31,138 nucleotides of DNA. Origin: a virus. The notes beneath the pieces are model-generated. The model had not been told where the DNA came from and did not search any database. It worked only from the letters and a program-made list of their open reading frames with translations. Position 1 is the stretch's first letter. Each line of letters begins with the position of its first letter. Made by a program: the position numbers and the translations under genes. Of this stretch, positions 830-29,922 are shown piece by piece. The stretch is taken from the IMG/VR virus record IMGVR_UViG_3300020478_000040, positions 1 to 31,138 of that record; one strand, given 5' to 3'.

Positions 830-858
830 TTGACTTTTGATAAAAAAAATGTTAATAT
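830..858 (+). promoter_or_regulatory. Second candidate promoter for the 894-1624 operon
   Basis: TTGACT at 830-835 and TAATAT at 853-858 are separated by 17 bp, giving a predicted start near 865 and a leader of about 30 bases before the ATG at 894. It lies just downstream of the operator pair, so it could be an unrepressed or differently regulated promoter. Either this or the 795-822 pair, or both, may be used. Confidence 0.4.
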
Positions 859-893: not shown

Positions 894-1190
894 ATGAATT
901 ATAAATTAATAGACTGCGGAACTTACTTTTGGTTCGTTAAAACTGATCGTAAGTACCATCATTGTATTTACAGTGTAACTGGTGAATACAAAAAAATAAG
1001 ACGTGGCAAAACAATGATGATGCCATCTAATCAAAAAATGAAGATAGCATATCTTATGAATTGGCCACTTGAAACGGCACCATGCACCTTGGATAAAAAA
1101 AGCGCAAAATTTTTTCTTAAATTATTTCGTAGTTTTACTACCAAGACTGCACGCATAAAAGAAATCATAAAACAATTGAGGTCATTATGA
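894..1190 (+). CDS. Hypothetical basic 98-aa protein
   Basis: The ATG follows a clear Shine-Dalgarno (AAAAAGGAGTTAACCG). The 98-residue product is strongly basic and aromatic at its N-terminus (MNYKLIDCGTYFWFVK) and carries a Lys/Arg-rich C-terminal half (AKFFLKLFRSFTTKTARIK). I recognise no family. It is first in a plus-strand operon running against almost everything else here. Its stop overlaps the next start in an ATGA arrangement at 1187-1190, so it is translationally coupled to the metallopeptidase-like gene. The operator-bearing promoter upstream suggests it is under control of the phage regulator and may be expressed at a different time from the virion genes. Confidence 0.7.
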   Translation: MNYKLIDCGTYFWFVKTDRKYHHCIYSVTGEYKKIRRGKTMMMPSNQKMKIAYLMNWPLETAPCTLDKKSAKFFLKLFRSFTTKTARIKEIIKQLRSL

Positions 1191-1624
1191 ACGCAACTAA
1201 AGTTTATCTTGCTAATGGTCGTTCAAAAATTAAATATCCATTATGGGTTAGGCGTTATAGAAAACCATTAGCCAAAATAATAAGAGAACAATTAAAAAAT
1301 AAACACATACAAAAAGATGATGTTAAATTTTTTAAACAAATAGTTCTTACTGCTAGGCAAGTAGCCACCAAAGAATTTTTACCTTTAAAAGATGTAGTAT
1401 CTTGGAAAGTAAGATCCAATTCTAATTATGGTTGGTGTGAACACAACGGTGATATTAAAATTAATATTACTTTTGATAGATACTACTCTAGCATTTTAAA
1501 TACCTTGGCACATGAATTGGCTCACTTAAAATTCATGCATCATTATAAAGACTTTTGGAACTATCATAAAAAATTAATTCCAATAGTCCATGATACTTTT
1601 AACAAAGTGGGAGAAAGGAGTTAA
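1187..1624 (+). CDS. YgjP/DUF45-like zinc metallopeptidase
   Basis: The 145-residue protein has AHELAHLKFMHHYKDFWNYH at about 108-127. HELAH supplies two histidine ligands (109, 113) and the glutamate (110). The following HHYKDFW matches the H-x3-FW element of YgjP-like (DUF45, M48-related) metallopeptidases, where the histidine is the third ligand. The N-terminal half (YRKPLAKIIREQL, about 24-36) is basic and helical. In this superfamily such domains can be stand-alone or attached to restriction and defence genes, and substrates are poorly known. It overlaps the upstream gene by 4 bases and ends 3 bases before the convergent SleB gene. A strong plus-strand terminator lies about 30 bases beyond its stop. 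Confidence 0.75.
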   Translation: MNATKVYLANGRSKIKYPLWVRRYRKPLAKIIREQLKNKHIQKDDVKFFKQIVLTARQVATKEFLPLKDVVSWKVRSNSNYGWCEHNGDIKINITFDRYYSSILNTLAHELAHLKFMHHYKDFWNYHKKLIPIVHDTFNKVGERS

Positions 1625-9671: not shown

Positions 9672-10523
9672 CTATGTTGCTAATTTAAATCCACTAAAAG
9701 CATTTGTATATGCTGTACTAGATAATCCTTGTGAAGTTCCTAATTCAAGAGCAACTGTAACTTCATCTCCTGCACTTACATTTATTATACCTGAACAATG
9801 AACAGCACCAGCACTTGCATTAGATGTTACTCCACGAAGTTTATTTGCTCCCTCTACTTTAATATTAAAATACATTCCAGTATAAGAAGAACCTATATTA
9901 GCATTAGCTTGAAACCACCAATAGCCACCTTGACCACTTGGAATAGTGTATTTTCCATTTGAAGTATCATATCCACTAGCTGAATCAAAAATAGAATTAG
10001 TAAAAACTAACACAGCTTCACTACCTACTGTTTGTGTCGTTGTATCAACACGAAAATAAGGAGTATTGTTTCCACCTTTAATTAAAGAATAATCTATTCT
10101 TTTTATAACTCCGCCATCACTTACTAAAAATTCATCTGTGTCTGAAGGCTCGGAACTAAGTTCGGTTTGTGCAGATATAACATCAGTATTAAGTTTTGCT
10201 CCAGTAACAGCAGTATCATTTATAGTTGTGGTTGTAACACTACCAGCAGTAGGGTTAACTGATTGCATTACTTTATTTAAGTAATACACAGTTACGACAT
10301 CCCCTGAAACTAATGTGCCACCCAATGTAAGAGTTCTATTTCCTGTACCTCCTACCGAATAAGAATTTTTATCCTGAACTATATTTTGCCATACAACAAG
10401 TATATCTTCTTCCGCAGATATATCGTGATTTAAAGTTACCGTATTAGTCGTTAGACCTGTAAATCTATCCTGAATACCACTATCAAAAGTAGTTGCTGGT
10501 TGTTGTCCTATAAAGTATGACAT
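9672..10523 (-). CDS. Tail fibre protein with C1q-like C-terminal domain, cassette copy 1 (283 aa)
   Basis: Residues 1-11 (MSYFIGQQPAT) are the docking module shared with 7719-8597. The first 90 residues form a beta domain with NIVQDKNSYSV. From about residue 155 the sequence (PYFRVDTTTQTVGSEAVLVF, YTIPSGQGGYWWFQANANI, SGIINVSAGDEVTVAL, FSGFKLAT) follows the C1q/TNF-like jelly-roll pattern known in phage fibres, a trimeric ligand-binding fold. This is the likely host-receptor or glycan-binding tip. The gene starts at the base where the upstream 106-aa gene ends. Confidence 0.75.
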   Translation of the reverse strand: MSYFIGQQPATTFDSGIQDRFTGLTTNTVTLNHDISAEEDILVVWQNIVQDKNSYSVGGTGNRTLTLGGTLVSGDVVTVYYLNKVMQSVNPTAGSVTTTTINDTAVTGAKLNTDVISAQTELSSEPSDTDEFLVSDGGVIKRIDYSLIKGGNNTPYFRVDTTTQTVGSEAVLVFTNSIFDSASGYDTSNGKYTIPSGQGGYWWFQANANIGSSYTGMYFNIKVEGANKLRGVTSNASAGAVHCSGIINVSAGDEVTVALELGTSQGLSSTAYTNAFSGFKLAT

Positions 10524-10843
10524 CAGCTTACATCCGTTAGTAATTCAAGTGAAATATCTATAAGTCCACTTGCGTGAGAACTTTGTACTTGTACCTTGTC
10601 GCTTGAATTAAGTACAATTTTTGGTATTGTTAACGCACTGCCTGATGGAACTGACACGTCTTGAAATTTTACAAAAGTTGCAGTTCCGCTACTATCGTAC
10701 TTTTTTAAAGTAACATTTAGCGATGACGTATGCTTATTAGCAATAGTCCCCGTTACCACCATGCTTTTATTAGACGCTGTATATACATCAGTAAGTGAGT
10801 TGTTTGCAATAGTCAAAGATTTTTCATCAAAATTATTTGCCAT
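10523..10843 (-). CDS. Small beta-type structural protein, 106 aa
   Basis: The compact protein starts MANNFDEKSLTIANNSLTDV and continues with alternating beta-type sequence (VTGTIANKHTSSLNVTLKKY, LTIPKIVLNSSDKVQVQSS). Proteins of this size and pattern are frequent next to fibres in marine phages and look like an immunoglobulin-like or jelly-roll virion component. No catalytic motif is present. It lies between the large fibre and the first fibre cassette. Confidence 0.55.
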   Translation of the reverse strand: MANNFDEKSLTIANNSLTDVYTASNKSMVVTGTIANKHTSSLNVTLKKYDSSGTATFVKFQDVSVPSGSALTIPKIVLNSSDKVQVQSSHASGLIDISLELLTDVS

Positions 10844-10856
10844 TATTTTTTACTCC

Positions 10857-13112
10857 TCATGATAGCGCAATACTAATTGCTGTTGAAAATCCAGTAGTCG
10901 CCTTTGCGTCTAGCTGGGTTTGAATATTAGAACTAACTCCGTTGAGATAGCCATACTCAGTGTCCGAAATATTTGTGTTGGCACCAATTTTTGTTGCCGA
11001 AATTCTGTTTACATCTATTGTGATATTACCACTTGATGTAATTGGTGATCCTGAAATAGTAAATTCTGAAGCTGATTGAGTTAATCCAGCGCTTGTCACC
11101 GTGCCTGTGTTCGAAGGTGTAACTTTTGAGAAAGATACACTCGTAGTACCTAAATTCATATTACTATCATTAGTATTTAACCAGATAGTGTCAGCGTTAG
11201 TTGATCCTTCTTGAATGATAACCATTTGACCAGCCATTTCACCAGCAGTATCAAAGTCCGTATCACGGGAAGCTGATCCTGAAGCAACGGCTGTATAAAT
11301 ACCGTTTGCACTGGCGGTACTCTGGTTCTTAACTAAAATACGATTTCCTGTGGCAATTACAACACCGTCTATTGTATCTCCATTTTGAAGATCTGCTGTT
11401 AAATCAACATTGGCTGTTGTTGCTACACGGCATATCACTCTGGTTTTTAATCCTGCTACTAAATTGTCGGTGTACGTTTTTGTTGCTGGCTCGCTTCCTG
11501 AACTCGGCGAACCTAATCCACTTATGGAACCTCCCGTGATACTGACGTTATTACTAGCTTGTGTTGCAATCGTACCTAATCCAAGATTTGTTCTTGCTGT
11601 GGAAGCTGATGCTAGATCAGATAAGTTATTAGCTTTAATTGCTTTAGCATCCAAAGCCGTTTGGACGTTTGCTGAAACTGAATTAATATAACTGAGTTCA
11701 CTATTCGTGACATCCCCGTTACCAATTTTTGTAGCATCAATTCCAGTAGCAAGTTGTGAGTCACTTACGCCTGCTGTTTTAATAGAAACGGCTCCACTTG
11801 AAACTGCAAAATCATTTGTACTGAATGATGCTATTCCTTTATTTGATACTGTTGCATCTTCACCAGCAAAAGTAACGGTCCCTGAACTTTCAGTTACATC
11901 CATGCCTTCGCCAGCACTTAATGTTAATGTTCCACCTAAAGCAACAGGTGATGTATTAGATCCATCGGAAACTGTTATAGATGAATTAACTAATTCAGCA
12001 TTAGCTACTCCACCATCTTTAATTGTTACTGCTCCTGAAGATACAGCAAAATTATCAGAATGAAAAGAAGCAACCCCTTTATTGGATGTTGAAGCGTCCT
12101 CGCCAGCAATAGTTACCGCGTTACCAGTAGCAGAGGTATCAATACCTTCTCCACCAGAAATTGTTAATGTTTCTGAGTCAAGATCAATCGCAATAGTCCC
12201 TGAGTCAGTAGTAATGTCAACGTCTTGCGCTGTTAATTGTGCATCAACATACGCCTTAATACTTTGTTGAGAAGCAACCTTGGTAGCGCTATTTGAGGAC
12301 ATATCATCCTCATCAACAAAAGCTGATCCAGAAATTGCTGTATTAATAACTGGGGATGTTAAGGTTTTATTAGTAAGTGTATCAGTCGTTGCCTTACCAA
12401 CAAGAGTATCAGTTGCATTTGGCAAAGTAATAGTTCTGTCAGCAGTTGGATCAGTGACCGTTAAAGTTGTTTCGTAAGCGTCATCCGTTGCACCTTCAAA
12501 TATAATTGTTGCATCTTCATTTAAAGTTAAAGATGTTCCTACTGTTGGTGTGTTAAGAACAGGCGATGTTAAAGTTTTATTTGTTAAAGTAATTGAACCA
12601 CTATCAATATATGCTTTTACTGATTGCTGGGAAGGAGGTAAGATTGCGCTGTTCTCTGACATAGCGTCAGTATCTATAACAGGGATTGAAGGTCCAACAT
12701 AGGTAGAACCTAAATATAAAACTGGGTTTGTGTCACTTGCATGAATTGAACCTGAATCGAACGTTATAGAAATTGTAGTATTGGGTGATGAATAACTGCT
12801 TGTAGCTATTTTTCCAAAAATTCCTGTCGTAGAGGTATTAGCACCTGTTAATTTAATTCTACGTCCAACATGATGAGTACCCGTAACATCAGCACCGATA
12901 GTAACAGATGTAGCACTGGCTCTAGTATAAGTGTTGGTTGTATCGCCGTTTCCAAGAATAAACCATTCTTTATCGTTCCATTGATCTTTTTGTGCGGACA
13001 TATCCGCGCGAAACACGTTATTAACCAGACTGGGAGCCATTCCCTCGGCAACGTTAATTCCGCTTAATGTGCTGTTACTACTTGCTGTTGTTGAATAATC
13101 TTTTATTGCCAT
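10857..13112 (-). CDS. Large repetitive tail fibre protein (751 aa)
   Basis: The protein contains repeated fibre modules: LTNKTLTSPVLNTPTVG and LTNKTLTSPVINTAISG (about 170-265), paired PxQQSxKAYxD elements (about 160 and 285), and a duplicated unit with ASFHSDNFAVSSGAVTIKDG / ASFSTNDFAVSSGAVSIKTA (about 350 and 430). The TITLPNATDTLVGKATTDTL motif is typical of marine podo- and siphophage fibres. A C-terminal part repeats LDAKA elements (about 500 and 740). It is presumably the main trimeric shaft linking tail to the receptor-binding cassettes. Internal repeats make this a site for recombination. Confidence 0.8.
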   Translation of the reverse strand: MAIKDYSTTASSNSTLSGINVAEGMAPSLVNNVFRADMSAQKDQWNDKEWFILGNGDTTNTYTRASATSVTIGADVTGTHHVGRRIKLTGANTSTTGIFGKIATSSYSSPNTTISITFDSGSIHASDTNPVLYLGSTYVGPSIPVIDTDAMSENSAILPPSQQSVKAYIDSGSITLTNKTLTSPVLNTPTVGTSLTLNEDATIIFEGATDDAYETTLTVTDPTADRTITLPNATDTLVGKATTDTLTNKTLTSPVINTAISGSAFVDEDDMSSNSATKVASQQSIKAYVDAQLTAQDVDITTDSGTIAIDLDSETLTISGGEGIDTSATGNAVTIAGEDASTSNKGVASFHSDNFAVSSGAVTIKDGGVANAELVNSSITVSDGSNTSPVALGGTLTLSAGEGMDVTESSGTVTFAGEDATVSNKGIASFSTNDFAVSSGAVSIKTAGVSDSQLATGIDATKIGNGDVTNSELSYINSVSANVQTALDAKAIKANNLSDLASASTARTNLGLGTIATQASNNVSITGGSISGLGSPSSGSEPATKTYTDNLVAGLKTRVICRVATTANVDLTADLQNGDTIDGVVIATGNRILVKNQSTASANGIYTAVASGSASRDTDFDTAGEMAGQMVIIQEGSTNADTIWLNTNDSNMNLGTTSVSFSKVTPSNTGTVTSAGLTQSASEFTISGSPITSSGNITIDVNRISATKIGANTNISDTEYGYLNGVSSNIQTQLDAKATTGFSTAISIALS

Positions 13113-22925: not shown

Positions 22926-23782
22926 TATTTACCGCCTGTAAATCCACCTAAAGATTCACTATACCTACTTCTAATTTCTTTATCTGTATTTTTAACAGAT
23001 CTAATAATATTTTCTTTTAATGCTTTTCTGTATTTATCTTCATCCCTTCTACCATCATCTCTTGTCAAATGACTGCTCGTAGGTTTTGTTTTTTGGTAAT
23101 AATCTCCGCCAGTTCTATCAACTTTTTCATATTGAACAGTACCATCATCTTGAACAACTGGAATTACATCACCTTTATCATCCTGTCTGTCAATAATATT
23201 AGTAACTGTTTTATCTAAATTTTCTTTATACAATTGAGGATTAATATTAAATGTTACGTTGCCATCTTTATCTGTGCCTTGAACAAAACCTCTTTTTGTT
23301 AATTCATTAATAATAAAATTATAACGTAGGTCTTGTTGCTTTCCAATAGCAAATTTTAATAAAGGAGAACCCATCAACGGTTTATTAACAGTAACTATAT
23401 CGCCTTTACTTGGTAAATATCCAAGAATACTATTTCCTATCCAGCCATCTTTTAAATAATCAATTAATTCTTCATCACTGGCACTTTTCATATCTTCAAT
23501 AGACATGTAAGGCCTTTCATCTGAATCTTTTTTGTTGTTGTTGTTGTTATTGTTGCCTTTATTAACACACATTGGATGATTAGCATTAGCTGGAACAGAA
23601 CAAAATACTCCCATGTCAAAATCACTTTCTGGTGTATCTGGTTCAGGAGTAATAGGATTTGTATTCCATGTATAAGGTGTTGCTGTTGCAAAATTCATTG
23701 GAACCGCACCTAAAGGTTGTCCGCCACCGCCTGTAATATTTGAAAATAATGCTGATTGTTGAAAAGGAATAAAATTTGCCAT
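22925..23782 (-). CDS. Hypothetical protein with asparagine run, 285 aa
   Basis: The N-terminal region is Pro/Gly-rich and low-complexity (SNITGGGGQPLGAVPMNFAT). A run of seven asparagines near residues 77-83 is encoded by a repetitive AAC/AAT tract and precedes a charged middle domain (MSIEDMKSASDEELIDYLKD) and a Lys/Arg-rich C-terminus. It lies between portal and the 77-aa gene. I do not recognise a family; position suggests a portal-associated or head protein. The Asn run may be variable between isolates. Confidence 0.5.
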   Translation of the reverse strand: MANFIPFQQSALFSNITGGGGQPLGAVPMNFATATPYTWNTNPITPEPDTPESDFDMGVFCSVPANANHPMCVNKGNNNNNNNKKDSDERPYMSIEDMKSASDEELIDYLKDGWIGNSILGYLPSKGDIVTVNKPLMGSPLLKFAIGKQQDLRYNFIINELTKRGFVQGTDKDGNVTFNINPQLYKENLDKTVTNIIDRQDDKGDVIPVVQDDGTVQYEKVDRTGGDYYQKTKPTSSHLTRDDGRRDEDKYRKALKENIIRSVKNTDKEIRSRYSESLGGFTGGK

Positions 23783-25794
23783 TACAACGTCCCCATTTGT
23801 GCTTTTTTATTTATTTTTTCACGTTCAATTTGTAATTCCGCTATCATTTCTTCTTGTTTTAATTTTATTTCTGCCATCATTTCTTGTTTCTTTAATTCAA
23901 GTTCAGCTTCCATTTTTTCTTTTCGTAATTGTAATTCTCCTATATTCTTTTCTCTATCCGCTTGTATTTGTTGTTGTGTTGCAATTAATAACGGATTATC
24001 CTGCATAGGATCTTTTTGTTCTGGTGGTTGTGTTTCTGGATTAACAAAAAATTCTTGCGGGGATTTAAACCCTGCATTATGCACCATTCTCTCTAGTGTA
24101 TTATAAATTGTTTGTTCATTTGCTAATTTACTACCTGACATTAAGATCTCTTTTTGAATACCTAAAATTTGTCCTAAAACTTGTAAACGTTGTTCATGTG
24201 TTCCCGTTCCTAACCCCACGTTTATTGTTAAATTAAATTTATTTTTCCACTCTCTTGGGTCTATTGGAACGTATTTATTTCTAATTTTAATTATTCTTTT
24301 ATGATCTTGATATTGTGTTGTTAATTTTAATAAACAATTCATTAAATCTTTAATGCCTGTTTCTGCAAATACTCTCGCAATGGTTTCAATACGTTGCCCT
24401 GCTGATTGCATTGCTTCTCTTACACCAGTTGCGGTTGTATGAGATTTTTGTATTGTATTTGGATCTAAGCCTTGTTGTAATCTATTTATACCTGAACGTT
24501 GTTCTTTTATTTGATCGACTTTCTCAATCATAGCCAAACCTTCTTGCATAAAGTTTTGTGCTTGTAATGGTACAACAGCGTTTGGTGATTTGACTCTTAC
24601 AATATTTCCTGCTCTTGATTGTAATAAATCATCAAGGTTAACCATTCCGTCCTGTGCTAAGACTCGGCTATTATTCATAAGGAAAGCGTTGTCCAAGCAC
24701 TGTCTTAGAAGCACTGACTTTATTTGCTGGATGTCCATAACGAGGTCTGCAACACTCATTCCAAATAAACGATGCGGATTGATAATCGGTGTTAACGTAG
24801 AAAATGGAATATAACTTATTTCTTCTACATCCAAAATTTCATTCGTATCACCTACAGTAACTACTTTTAATAATTCAGCTACACCATCATTATCAATATC
24901 GGTGCGAATATAATTTTCCATGTAAAGAATTTCACGCATAGATGGATCAGCGTTTTCATCCATGTAGCTTTCTTCATCAAACATGTTACGGCTTAATGTT
25001 TCTTCATTCCATGTGGAATTAGTATAAGAAGGTAGATCTTCTATTTTTTTTCTATCGTACCCTTCGCCAATTAATTCACTTACCGTCTTTTTTAAACGAT
25101 GCGCTATATATGGCGCATCCGCCAAATTTTTTGCTCGTTTGGAAACAAGTATTTCTTCGGGAGGAACGTTTTCAATACATATTTTTCCTGCTGATGATTT
25201 ACGGCGTACATCAACATTAAATTTAATTTCACTATCAGCCATTTCCCCTTGATCGGTCATGACCATTTTTTCTTCTGAAACTTCTTCGACGTTTAATACC
25301 TCAACATCATCATCTAATAATAATGCTTGATATTCTATCTCTGTAAGGCCTTTATACGACTCTTTGATAAATTCATCTTCGTATTTATAATAATGCTTTA
25401 TAAAGCCATTTTTTTGAATTAAAGCATCTTTAAACCAAGTATAAAAGACTTGCCATCCATCATTATCCTTAAAAATAATATGATTAATGTATTCTGTAGC
25501 TTGTTTTGCTACTTCTTCATCTTCCTCAGATACAGGTTCAAATTTAACTATGTCGTCCCCTGCTGTGAATATCCTCAATAAGCTAGGAAGAACTGACTCA
25601 ACAGCTTCCAGCACATCAGAGGATATAACCTGAGATCTGCCTTCTACTTCATTGCCAAATGGTTCGGAATTGTAATAATCTAAAGCTAGGCTTCGTTCTT
25701 GAACTAATTTCCCGTTCTGATACCCTAAAGCATCAGTAATTTCGCGCGTAATAGTTCCTTTTAACTCGTTTTCTTTTTTTTTATTTAATTTCAT
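23782..25794 (-). CDS. Portal protein, P22/SU10-like, 670 aa
   Basis: The N-terminal block (RSLALDYYNSEPFGNEVEGR, SQVISSDVLEAVESVLPSLL, RIFTAGDDIVKFEPVSEEDE) and WKDALIQKNGFIKHYY-like motif (FKDALIQKNGFIKHYYKYED) are hallmarks of P22-type portal proteins. Further blocks include RRKSSAGKICIENVPPEEIL and HRLFGMSVADLVMDIQQIKS. The C-terminus is a very long coiled coil (about 600-665). A dodecameric ring would form the DNA entry and exit channel. It follows the terminase gene in the genome order but the HTH regulator lies between them. Start is ATG at 25794; the Shine-Dalgarno is weak (AAAGAAAT). Confidence 0.85.
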   Translation of the reverse strand: MKLNKKKENELKGTITREITDALGYQNGKLVQERSLALDYYNSEPFGNEVEGRSQVISSDVLEAVESVLPSLLRIFTAGDDIVKFEPVSEEDEEVAKQATEYINHIIFKDNDGWQVFYTWFKDALIQKNGFIKHYYKYEDEFIKESYKGLTEIEYQALLLDDDVEVLNVEEVSEEKMVMTDQGEMADSEIKFNVDVRRKSSAGKICIENVPPEEILVSKRAKNLADAPYIAHRLKKTVSELIGEGYDRKKIEDLPSYTNSTWNEETLSRNMFDEESYMDENADPSMREILYMENYIRTDIDNDGVAELLKVVTVGDTNEILDVEEISYIPFSTLTPIINPHRLFGMSVADLVMDIQQIKSVLLRQCLDNAFLMNNSRVLAQDGMVNLDDLLQSRAGNIVRVKSPNAVVPLQAQNFMQEGLAMIEKVDQIKEQRSGINRLQQGLDPNTIQKSHTTATGVREAMQSAGQRIETIARVFAETGIKDLMNCLLKLTTQYQDHKRIIKIRNKYVPIDPREWKNKFNLTINVGLGTGTHEQRLQVLGQILGIQKEILMSGSKLANEQTIYNTLERMVHNAGFKSPQEFFVNPETQPPEQKDPMQDNPLLIATQQQIQADREKNIGELQLRKEKMEAELELKKQEMMAEIKLKQEEMIAELQIEREKINKKAQMGTL

Positions 25795-25816
25795 TGATTA
25801 TTATTTCTTTATAGTG

Positions 25817-25829
25817 TAACAACGTTATA
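25817..25829. promoter_or_regulatory. Palindromic operator between portal and HTH genes
   Basis: TAACAACGTTATA matches the operator found at 802-814 and 29604-29618 with two differences. On the minus strand it lies between a TATAAA -10 (25813-25808) and a weak -35 (25836-25831), the same in-spacer placement as at the other sites, so it may control portal transcription. It ends just before the HTH start codon at 25831 and could also control that gene. Overlap with both start regions makes autoregulation likely; this is inference. Confidence 0.55.
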
Positions 25830-25830
25830 T

Positions 25831-26076
25831 ATGAATAAAATAACTAAACATGGCTTTAGGCGATTGCTTAAATTCCTTAATATGTCCCAAGGTCAATTGG
25901 CTAGGGAAACAGGTCAGACGAGAACCAGTATAGGTAATTACTTTAATGGTCGTCGTCCGATTAATACGTTGATGGCGTGGGGTCTAAACCTCAAGGTTGA
26001 GAATGAAGAACTCAAAAAACACAATACTAAACTATCCCAGAGGGTCCATACTTTAAATCAGAGGACCAAGAACTAG
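25831..26076 (+). CDS. XRE-type helix-turn-helix regulator, 81 aa
   Basis: Residues 9-34 (FRRLLKFLNMSQGQLARETG, then QTRTSIGNYFNGRR) form a classic Cro/C1-type helix-turn-helix: a helix, SQ-x-x-LA, G-x-x, and an S/T-I-x-x-Y recognition helix. A leucine/charge-rich tail (KVENEELKKHNTKLSQRVHT) may form a coiled coil for dimerisation, which fits a palindromic operator. It is the only plus-strand gene among the virion genes, and its 3' end overlaps the terminase gene antisense by 50 bases. There is no Shine-Dalgarno before its ATG, so it may use a short-leader or leaderless transcript. It is the likely repressor of the operators described here. Confidence 0.75.
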   Translation: MNKITKHGFRRLLKFLNMSQGQLARETGQTRTSIGNYFNGRRPINTLMAWGLNLKVENEELKKHNTKLSQRVHTLNQRTKN

Positions 26077-27304
26077 ACTCGTTTAAGCCGATTGCCATAT
26101 AGCGCATTGCATCACAGGAATTACTTTCGGTTCCGTGGTGCGGGGTTGAAGTAATTTCTCCTAGTTGATTTGTTTTCCATTTATATTGTTTTAAACAATT
26201 AACTAAATAGTCACATTTATCTTTTTCAAAATAGCAACGTTTTAATACCATTCTTAAAGCATTAATTCCTTCTTCTATTTTTAACTTAGGTACAGCTTGT
26301 ATAAACCATCCTAAATTGGAAGCTATTTCTTGCCTGCTTTTTCCCGTCCCTAATTCTTTAACCACTATATCATGTCCTGCAAAGTGATTATCATAGGTAT
26401 AAGGAAGTTCCTTTAACTTATTAGCGTAGTATTCTATACTTTCTCCTGCGCCTTCTAAATGATCAATAATATGAATTGCTGATCCTTGCTTTTGAATAAA
26501 TACGATGCTGAAAGCATCGCGGTAGCCAATATCCGAAAACGTGGTTACAGGTAATTCGGGTATATGCGGGACAGTAGTAATACGTTTTTCATCCTCTACC
26601 AATTGCATGGATTTTGAATAAATTCCATTTACTACTCCTGCATCAAAATCACAAAGAAACTCAGTAGCGTATTCTTCGGGACTCATCATTAACTTTAAGT
26701 TTTCCAATTCGTCCTTTGGAATAATTTTGGTATCTTCTACGGTATATTTTTTAACAAACCAATCTTTCTTGCCTTTGTTGTTCATATACATGTCATAAAA
26801 AAAATTATGACCTGAAGGAGTTCCGATTGCTATTAACCAGCCTGTTTTTTTATCTAGTTGGTGTCTATCTACCAATGCTGGTCGTAAAACCTTTGTAATT
26901 AAATCCTTATGCAATAATTGACATTCATCCAATATAACCCCGTCAGCGTAAATACCTCTTATGGAGTCAACACTCGATCCATCTGCGCCTAATAATTGTA
27001 TTCTTCTTCCCCCCACCATATCACAACGTAATTCTGTTTCATGATATGTTGTATAAGGAATATTTTTTGTTAGTAACTTTAAATTATCCCAATGGATTTT
27101 TTTTACCTGTGAATAGGTAGCCGATATAATATAATACCTAGGATTAGGTAAATTATTCTGAAAAGCCTTTTTTAATGTTTCAGCTAATCCCCAATAGCTT
27201 TTCCCAAATCTCCTATGACATGGCAGGCAATTAAACCTTTTTATTTTTTTATGTAACTGTGCCTGATGTTTTCTAGGTTTATACGGTATTGTTACGTTCG
27301 TCAT
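26027..27304 (-). CDS. Large terminase subunit (DNA packaging ATPase/nuclease), 425 aa
   Basis: The N-terminal ATPase has Walker A CHRRFGKS at about 29-36 and Walker B VILDE at about 123-127. The nuclease domain shows acidic positions in TFSDIGYRDAF (about 255-265), GHDIVVKE (about 310-317) and SCDAMRYMA (about 396-404), the DDD arrangement of RNase-H-like terminase nucleases. It would cut and translocate phage DNA into procapsids through the portal. The 3' end overlaps the HTH gene on the other strand. A 15-bp sequence shared with the methyltransferase leader sits six bases before the start codon. Confidence 0.9.
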   Translation of the reverse strand: MTNVTIPYKPRKHQAQLHKKIKRFNCLPCHRRFGKSYWGLAETLKKAFQNNLPNPRYYIISATYSQVKKIHWDNLKLLTKNIPYTTYHETELRCDMVGGRRIQLLGADGSSVDSIRGIYADGVILDECQLLHKDLITKVLRPALVDRHQLDKKTGWLIAIGTPSGHNFFYDMYMNNKGKKDWFVKKYTVEDTKIIPKDELENLKLMMSPEEYATEFLCDFDAGVVNGIYSKSMQLVEDEKRITTVPHIPELPVTTFSDIGYRDAFSIVFIQKQGSAIHIIDHLEGAGESIEYYANKLKELPYTYDNHFAGHDIVVKELGTGKSRQEIASNLGWFIQAVPKLKIEEGINALRMVLKRCYFEKDKCDYLVNCLKQYKWKTNQLGEITSTPHHGTESNSCDAMRYMAIGLNESSSWSSDLKYGPSGIV

Positions 27305-27334: not shown

Positions 27335-27889
27335 TTAAATCCAGTCTATAGTAGGTAATCCATTGTAATTAACGTCATAAATAAACCAGCCAAAAGCCAT
27401 AAGACCTCTAGCAATAGTATCGCCTTGTTTTTTAAATGGTACTCGTCTTGAAAAGATTAAAACTTTTTCTAATTTTTTTTTATTAAATATTTGCTCTCGT
27501 CTTTTTATTCCTTCTAAATAAGAAATTTTAGAAAGCATAACTACTTTTTTTCTAGCAAGTGTAAAAGCATGAGTAGTAAATTCTGTTGCTAAATTAAAAG
27601 GTGGATTTGTAACTATGTTATCAACTTTTTTTGTTGATTGTAAAAAATCTATTCCTGTTTCTCCATATCCTCTATCAATTAAATCTGAAGAATAAACATC
27701 ATATCCTTCTTTAATCATTAATTTAGACATAGCACCATTACCACAAGCACATTCCCAAATGTTGCCATCAAATTTTTGTCTATCTAATAATGATTGTGTT
27801 GCATTATCTGGTGTTGGATAAAAGTCATCCTTTTCTCTATCACCTTTTGCGTTATGTCCTACATACGCTAAAGCTGAACTTGTTTTCAT
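27335..27889 (-). CDS. DNA adenine-N6 methyltransferase-like protein, 184 aa
   Basis: The SAM-binding motif region reads WECACGNGAMSKLMI at about 45-59, followed by the second-strand acidic YSSDLID. NPPF (95-98) is the catalytic motif IV of amino-methyltransferases acting on adenine-N6. FYPTPDNATQSLLD near the N-terminus fits the substrate-side segment before motif I in phage and Dam-like enzymes. No restriction partner is visible, so it is an orphan enzyme that may protect phage DNA from host nucleases or mark it for packaging; the target sequence is not deducible here. It lies between the small and large terminase genes. Confidence 0.75.
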   Translation of the reverse strand: MKTSSALAYVGHNAKGDREKDDFYPTPDNATQSLLDRQKFDGNIWECACGNGAMSKLMIKEGYDVYSSDLIDRGYGETGIDFLQSTKKVDNIVTNPPFNLATEFTTHAFTLARKKVVMLSKISYLEGIKRREQIFNKKKLEKVLIFSRRVPFKKQGDTIARGLMAFGWFIYDVNYNGLPTIDWI

Positions 27890-29597: not shown

Positions 29598-29625
29598 TTG
29601 ACATATAACAATGTTATAGTGTAAA
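29598..29625 (+). promoter_or_regulatory. Predicted promoter of the tiny 29635-29897 operon
   Basis: A perfect -35 TTGACA (29598-29603) and a weak -10 TGTAAA (29620-29625) are 16 bp apart. The operator palindrome fills the spacer, as at 795-822, and a second imperfect palindrome covers the start-site region. The same arrangement of -35, operator and -10 at two separate promoters is the main support. Confidence 0.5.
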
Positions 29626-29634: not shown

Positions 29635-29772
29635 ATGATTAAAAATAAAAAAATAAATAAATCAATGACATTTATTAAATTAAAAAAAATTATTAAAAAA
29701 AATAAACACATTAAAAATTATAATGCTTGGTATAAAGCATTAATAATTAACATAATAAAGGAGGTTAATTAA
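29635..29772 (+). CDS. Tiny basic protein, 45 aa
   Basis: The ATG at 29635 opens a 45-codon frame ending at the next gene start (TAATG). The product is very Lys/Ile/Asn-rich (MIKNKKINKSMTFIKLKKII...NYNAWYKALIINIIKEVN), with a probable amphipathic helix. No Shine-Dalgarno is visible before its ATG, and the first three bases lie just after the operators; if translated it may be from a short leader. Composition alone would be weak evidence, but coupling to the next gene, promoter and terminator support it. No function can be assigned. Confidence 0.4.
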   Translation: MIKNKKINKSMTFIKLKKIIKKNKHIKNYNAWYKALIINIIKEVN

Positions 29773-29897
29773 TGTTATTAATTATGACACCTACCCCCTG
29801 TGTTTTAGATAAAAATGATATTAATTATTTTTATTGGGGAATTAATTATTGGATAAATGGCGATTACTCTTGTTATAAAATTTATCCAAACAGATAA
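29772..29897 (+). CDS. Tiny aromatic-rich protein, 41 aa
   Basis: An excellent Shine-Dalgarno (AAAGGAGG at 29757-29764) lies seven bases before the ATG at 29772, itself overlapping the previous stop. The product starts MLLIMTPTPCVLDKNDINYF and has many Tyr, Trp and Asn residues and two cysteines (10 and 34). No family is recognised. It could be a small inhibitor of a host or phage protein. It ends two bases before the terminator stem. The strong ribosome site makes this the best-supported protein in the tiny operon. Confidence 0.55.
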   Translation: MLLIMTPTPCVLDKNDINYFYWGINYWINGDYSCYKIYPNR

Positions 29898-29898
29898 A

Positions 29899-29922
29899 AG
29901 GTGGCTCAATAATGAGCCATCT
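29899..29922. terminator. Bidirectional intrinsic terminator
   Basis: Bases 29899-29908 pair with 29913-29922 (core TGGCTCA-ATAA-TGAGCCA) in a stem of 10 bp with one G-T pair. T-rich sequence follows on the plus strand, and ...CCTTTTATC on the minus strand. It separates the tiny plus-strand operon from the convergent DUF6456-like gene, which ends at 29925, and would stop both. Confidence 0.8.

Follow-up and report, generated by a model that had tools for sequence, protein, structure and literature searches.

A reverse-strand helix-turn-helix regulator gene and a dispersed family of promoter palindromes in an uncultivated group of tailed phages

The regulator gene at the terminase–portal junction

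The window analysed here is the whole stretch of 31,138 bp of an incomplete IMG/VR record, which comes from a tailed phage whose portal is of the SU10 type. The phage is uncultivated and probably of marine origin; by terminase, the nearest cultured phages are pelagiphages, with about 40–44% identity. The junction of its terminase and portal genes bears the following features.

23782–25794, minus strand: portal of the SU10 type (SU10_portal, 6.8e-211)
25810–25815, plus strand: -10-like hexamer TATAGT of the regulator promoter, read from the sequence
25817–25827: operator TAAC-AAC-GTTA (TAACAACGTTA), overlapping the regulator promoter
25831–26076, plus strand: XRE-type (HTH_3) regulator, 81 aa, ATG start (Pfam HTH_3, E=1.3e-6)
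26027–26076, both strands: tail-to-tail overlap of the regulator and terminase genes, exactly 50 bp
26027–27304, minus strand: terminase large subunit (Terminase_6N, 1.3e-11; phrog_2, 1e-39)

An earlier note on this DNA described a plus-strand XRE regulator embedded between minus-strand terminase and portal genes, and this arrangement is confirmed by the reading frame, by Pfam HTH_3 (PF01381; 28.8 bits against a gathering cut-off of 23) and by the PHROG and Pfam assignments of the neighbours. The note was equally right about the 50 bp shared with the 3′ end of the terminase gene, about the missing Shine-Dalgarno sequence (the 17 bases preceding the ATG are gtgtaacaacgttatat) and about an operator at the gene start: the ATG lies 3 bp past the palindrome, which is also 22 bp ahead of the divergent portal ATG. 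Its premise that terminase and portal are usually adjacent holds only in part. In the pelagiphage HTVC106P nothing separates the terminase from the next large gene, whereas HTVC204P and HTVC010P have two to three small same-strand genes between the terminase and the head-tail connector. None of these three pelagiphages carries this regulator gene at the terminase junction, and no homologue of the regulator was found in cultured phages at E 0.01.

In uncultivated relatives the gene is a constant feature of the junction. Twelve relatives were fetched, in which two clades (A and B) were distinguished; in a profile search, HTH_3 was above the cut-off in all 13 genomes or fragments. A terminase-protein search of viral contigs gave 25 loci, in every one of which the HTH gene adjoins the terminase. 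A search with the portal protein, made without regard to the HTH gene, yielded 33 junctions with sufficient readable sequence, and the check in close relatives proposed by the earlier note thus has a clear answer, as the gene is intact in 33 of 33. The encoded proteins are of 78 aa (84 aa in one case) and 50–90% identical to that of the window, at a portal identity of 82–100%. Outside the terminase overlap, dN/dS of the regulator is 0.01–0.29 in most pairs of relatives, and the gene is under purifying selection. The higher value for the window and the contig L002 (0.72) is due to the divergence of the first ~17 codons in the window. Within 25831–25880 these codons are unlike those of L002, the remainder being nearly identical; the usual ATG is changed to ATA, and a new ATG has appeared upstream. 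The start codon of all relatives lies 9 bases further in (MTK...), in most of them 1 bp past the operator, so the 5′ end of the window gene looks like the product of a small recombination, insertion or rearrangement.

Between the small and large terminase genes, the window also contains a short DNA methyltransferase-like gene (27335–27889, minus strand), which matches only positions 204–379 of the 458 of phrog_799 and is absent from the gene lists of the same interval in the relatives G001 and G003.

The promoter of the regulator has no clear -35 in the sequence, and its -10 is conserved, reading T(A/G)TAGT in the majority of relatives. TAAC-N3-GTTA stands ahead of the HTH gene in all 33 portal-found readable junctions; its arms are invariant, and the three-base spacer takes seven forms, that of the window and six others. 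The promoter can be written as TATAGT-GTAAC...GTTATATATG, with a single operator over the region from -10 to +1, a placement that would result in autorepression. A search for RNA structure at the regulator start, of the kind expected for Aca2-like RNA control, detected nothing unusual (z -0.4). In two contigs (L095 and L096), a 61-aa gene is inserted between the operator-promoter and the regulator, and its stop codon overlaps the regulator ATG.

A dispersed operator family and two accessory gene slots

The 11-bp core of the palindrome, TAACNNNGTTA, has nine occurrences in the window, where 1.05 are expected and the largest number in 100 shuffles is four. Three of these matches are intergenic (802, 25817 and 29606; 0.06 expected). 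The other six fall within genes, possibly as noise; the core alone is thus insufficient evidence for a site. In five genomes, 3–7 intergenic sites were counted against 0.06–0.24 expected, and a symmetric consensus of 15 bp, TATAACATTGTTATA, is common to 40 distinct intergenic sites. The high PWM scores of the three intergenic sites of the window are due to their extension towards TATAAC..GTTATA. In the 12 relatives, intergenic operators recur at corresponding places: at the HTH start, in a promoter that points away from the late operon (window 29606), at the operon that begins at window position 894, near the integrase and, in clade A, in the central early region. A further operator promoter recurs in relatives between a 106-aa gene and the capsid gene, and the window is without it. 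When 2.9 million viral contigs were scanned with the promoter-operator pattern TTGACATATAACANTGTTAYA, 44 stretches matched, 42 of which came from this phage group. The other two, outside the group (L118 and L135), are coding matches in a T4-like phage. The pelagiphages without the regulator at the junction have just 1–3 core matches each. All of this, from the gene and the operators to the promoter geometry, the conservation and the confinement to the phage group, is read directly from the DNA.

The best-marked targets of the operator family are promoters of small accessory genes, represented in the window by the following elements.

29598–29603, plus strand: -35 TTGACA of the accessory promoter, read from the sequence
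29606–29616: operator TAACAATGTTA, extended TATAACAATGTTATA, of the accessory promoter, with the best PWM score
29622–29635: TAAACGTTGTTTTA, a degenerate second operator-like element adjoining the ATG of 29635–29772
29635–29897, plus strand: two small accessory ORFs of 45 and 41 aa with no assigned function, downstream of the accessory promoter
29900–29921: terminator-like hairpin GGTGGCTCA-ATAA-TGAGCCATC closing the accessory slot (-16.8 kcal/mol, z -4.9)

The order of elements in these promoters is TTGACA, the first operator in the spacer, and the second operator over the TATAAC -10 and the start region, the two operators being 17–18 bp apart. The second operator is perfect in several relatives, and in several its palindrome is overlapped by the ATG (TATAACATTGTTATG), so that the transcript would begin at or beside the start codon. 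Judged by its geometry, this appears to be a repressor arrangement, which also suggests that the accessory messages are near-leaderless.

What follows the promoter is variable: the slot at 29635–29897 carries different genes in relatives, and from roughly 35 promoter instances, distributed over two slots, about 30 similarity groups of genes were obtained. The slot genes lie on the strand opposite to the late genes and are mostly without assigned function. One of them matches Mom-like DNA modification proteins (phrog_1384, 2.4e-15). This protein is encoded at 10292–11050 of the contig L067 and in relatives, and its C-terminal part matches the XF1762 family. An anti-defence role of the slot genes is a guess based on this one annotation and on analogy.

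The hairpin that closes this slot, the second of the two, is conserved as GGTGGCTCA-N3/4-TGAGCCATC (29900–29921 in the window, 4608–4629 in L091, 9541–9562 in L067). The last codons of one gene lie in the hairpin (...VAQ stop), and the following gene can take its start there (MSHL...), as at a module boundary. In one relative (L105), the large terminase beside the conserved accessory promoter seems to be distant and of another type, which suggests that the packaging module has been replaced. Elsewhere, in G001 (24457–24618, minus strand) and G003 (27651–27812, minus strand), an operator is abutted by the minus-strand ATG of a 53-aa cysteine-rich (zinc-ribbon-like) ORF situated directly behind an 800-aa gene without assigned function.

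At the left end of the window, operators occupy another position relative to the promoter.

802–812: operator TAACATTGTTA, the upstream one of two in tandem (motif and PWM)
819–829: weak second operator TAACAGCGTTT, its centre 17 bp from that of the first and at about -41 to the following promoter
830–858, plus strand: promoter TTGACT-N17-TAATAT, read from the sequence
894–1624, plus strand: two-gene operon for a 98-aa unassigned protein and a 145-aa probable zinc metallopeptidase (gene calls)

The weak second operator is retained in G001, G002 and G004, and the G001 counterpart of the metallopeptidase matches YgjP-like proteins. The two centres, at about -41 and -58, are just upstream of the -35. 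The central early promoter of clade A has its operators similarly placed; at the integrase promoter of relatives there is one operator, somewhat further upstream. A site at about -41, ahead of the -35, recalls the activation of PRM by lambda CI; by analogy, activation by the regulator at the 802/819 pair is possible.

Candidate binding protein, proposed circuit and alternatives

The HTH protein is the best candidate for the binder of TAAC-N3-GTTA, since the palindrome is always found in its own promoter and is all but restricted to the phage group, and since residues in the region of the recognition helix do not vary (T30, R31, T32, G35, N36 and Y37 are invariant in 15 aligned proteins with identity to the window protein down to 53%). 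Two other DNA-binding proteins are encoded by the group. A LexA-type protein of 79 aa with a winged helix and an N-terminal CxxC motif is present in both clades, where its gene heads the replication operon (L050, 3768–4007, minus strand; G004, G007 and others). A 240-aa XRE protein is encoded divergently from the replication operon, at the early divergence (L053, 3239–3961, for G003; also G002 and G009); it is found in clade B only, the same profile giving no match in clade A, and is possibly a CI-like repressor without a recognised protease domain. Either protein could share or own operators. That the palindrome belongs to the LexA-like protein or to a host protein, with the HTH gene merely a target, is nevertheless improbable. 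The LexA-like gene is indeed present in all six relatives whose fragment spans that region, but in G003 (clade B) there is no operator upstream of it, whereas the HTH gene always has one. Moreover, LexA-family sites are usually of the GTTC/GAAC type, and palindromes of this very type (GTTCTT...AAGAAC) occur close to the LexA-like gene in clade A.

We consider it likely that the gene encodes an autorepressing regulator, similar to Aca, Cro and C proteins, of a dispersed early and accessory regulon, which would act in trans as a dimer on the palindrome. The dimer would bind TAAC-N3-GTTA, extended to TATAACATTGTTATA, and shut its own promoter through the operator across -10 to +1. In trans, it would act on the strong TTGACA promoters of the accessory slots carrying the operator, as well as on the integrase neighbourhood, the central early promoters and the 894–1624 operon. 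Soon after entry these promoters would fire, and the accumulating regulator would close them and itself, in the manner of Aca, Cro and C proteins; at tandem operators just upstream of the -35, it may activate instead. Binding at the operators, the choice between repression and activation, and the timing are what we infer.

The earlier note placed the mechanism elsewhere, in the antisense overlap with the terminase, where convergent transcription would switch between late expression and repression. Late minus-strand transcription does have to cross the regulator gene to reach the portal, the overlap was found in the junctions with gene ends read, and no convincing plus-strand terminator follows the regulator (the only candidate, inside the terminase gene, is weak, with a fold z of -0.7). 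However, the overlap varies in length between clades (50 bp for the window and G001, 29 bp for G003), tail-to-tail overlaps are common, and operators are also located far from the terminase, so that control is explained through them. There is little chance that the overlap itself is the switch; it appears to be an ordinary tail-to-tail overlap of varying length, and an antisense switch would not be needed, while late minus-strand RNA across the regulator may add interference or timing. More plausible, though still rather unlikely, is a prophage immunity repressor of the small P2 C or P22 c2 kind, with operators at all lytic promoters and the integrase. It would agree with the tyrosine integrase found in six relatives (G001–G004, G007 and G009, i.e., all whose fragment spans the region, which the window does not include), with the operator upstream of it, with the operators that clade A has in the central early region (in G003 of clade B, none was found there) and with the existence of small repressors that lack a protease domain. 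Clade B, however, encodes another XRE protein, the one of 240 aa, where the early and replication genes diverge, and the best-marked operator targets are the accessory slots. No intact prophage of the group was detected in genome contigs; the search of bacterial genomes returned only distant portals (36–41% identity) in Alphaproteobacteria MAGs. In two of these MAG contigs (L099 and L097), the ORF lists contain nothing at the junction that is clearly equivalent to the regulator; L097 has a different, 162-aa HTH-like ORF upstream of the portal. ARAGORN found no tRNA near the integrase as a clue to an attachment site. Besides, an integrase does not imply lysogeny, as T7-like cyanophages have integrases yet do not lysogenise (PMC8776855).

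The autorepressor reading may be extended, tentatively and with rather less than even chances, to a phage-wide promoter platform, in which one antisense repressor would serve two fixed slots that exchange unrelated accessory genes, probably for anti-defence, with late transcription adding timing. Each slot would then consist of a constant near-leaderless promoter with the operator covering the start codon or the start of transcription, and one slot at least would end in a constant closing hairpin. If this is true, the operator could serve as bait for anti-defence genes of marine phages. An uncultivated group distantly related to pelagiphages in its terminase gains a concrete predicted regulatory circuit with a defined operator, and the regulon and accessory genes can thus be listed by the motif alone. 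The slot genes, mostly unassigned and one of them Mom-like, from a DNA-modification family, swap freely among close relatives, and candidate anti-defence genes may in practice be fished out with the operator as bait, as was done in archaeal viruses with Aca8-type sequences (PMC11065993).

Fold and comparison with known systems

The regulator has an N-terminal HTH (helices 20–27 and 31–38) and a long C-terminal helix (46–80). Its AF2 model (pLDDT 83, pTM 0.53) was best aligned to Aca2 (Z 8.7 over 73 residues, rmsd 2.0), followed by Aca10, HigA2, Aca1 and C proteins (C.Kpn2I); P22 c2 and lambda CI rank lower (Z 5.5–5.6), and Foldseek E-values are weak. For a small helical protein, a Z of 8–9 is middling, and the alignment of the model points to fold, not function. 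None of the NCBIfam regulator families reached its own cut-off, and the matches up to E=1 contain no Aca model, whether or not the library has any. A HigA-like antitoxin was rejected, the NCBIfam HigA match (E=0.005) being far below the cut-off and no toxin gene standing alongside.

The targets of bacterial Aca proteins are inverted repeats located within the core promoter, in some cases with a second repeat (PMC9410906). Like Aca2, Aca1 and Aca10, the regulator is a small HTH protein with an inverted repeat within its own core promoter (33 of 33 readable junctions), and the small gene of unassigned function preceding it in L095 and L096 recalls acr-aca operons. Unlike Aca genes, the regulator gene of the window stands alone, antisense in the late operon and not behind an acr gene, a position that sets it outside the Aca group; its operators are dispersed over the genome, and no known anti-CRISPR gene was identified. 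In the literature, the idea nearest to this circuit is the Aca8 regulon of archaeal rudiviruses, in which scattered early anti-defence genes are marked by a single regulatory sequence (PMC11065993). Both systems have one small regulator and one regulatory sequence before many scattered small early genes, but the Aca8 system uses archaeal promoters and a winged-helix regulator, whereas here the promoter is of the bacterial type, the regulator is of the XRE type, and the accessory slots are two and fixed. The XRE fold and odd-centred tandem palindromes are shared with lambda Cro/CI and P22 c2, without the C-terminal protease domain and the classical divergent immunity region. C proteins (C.Kpn2I, C.Csp231I) are likewise of about 80 aa, similar in fold and autoregulated via tandem palindromes, but the restriction-modification pair is absent beside the regulator. 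No phage with multiple operators and a leaderless, autoregulated repressor turned up in a search of the literature. The regulator is set apart from known autorepressors by its reverse-strand place in the late operon, its dispersed tandem operators and the exchangeable slots.
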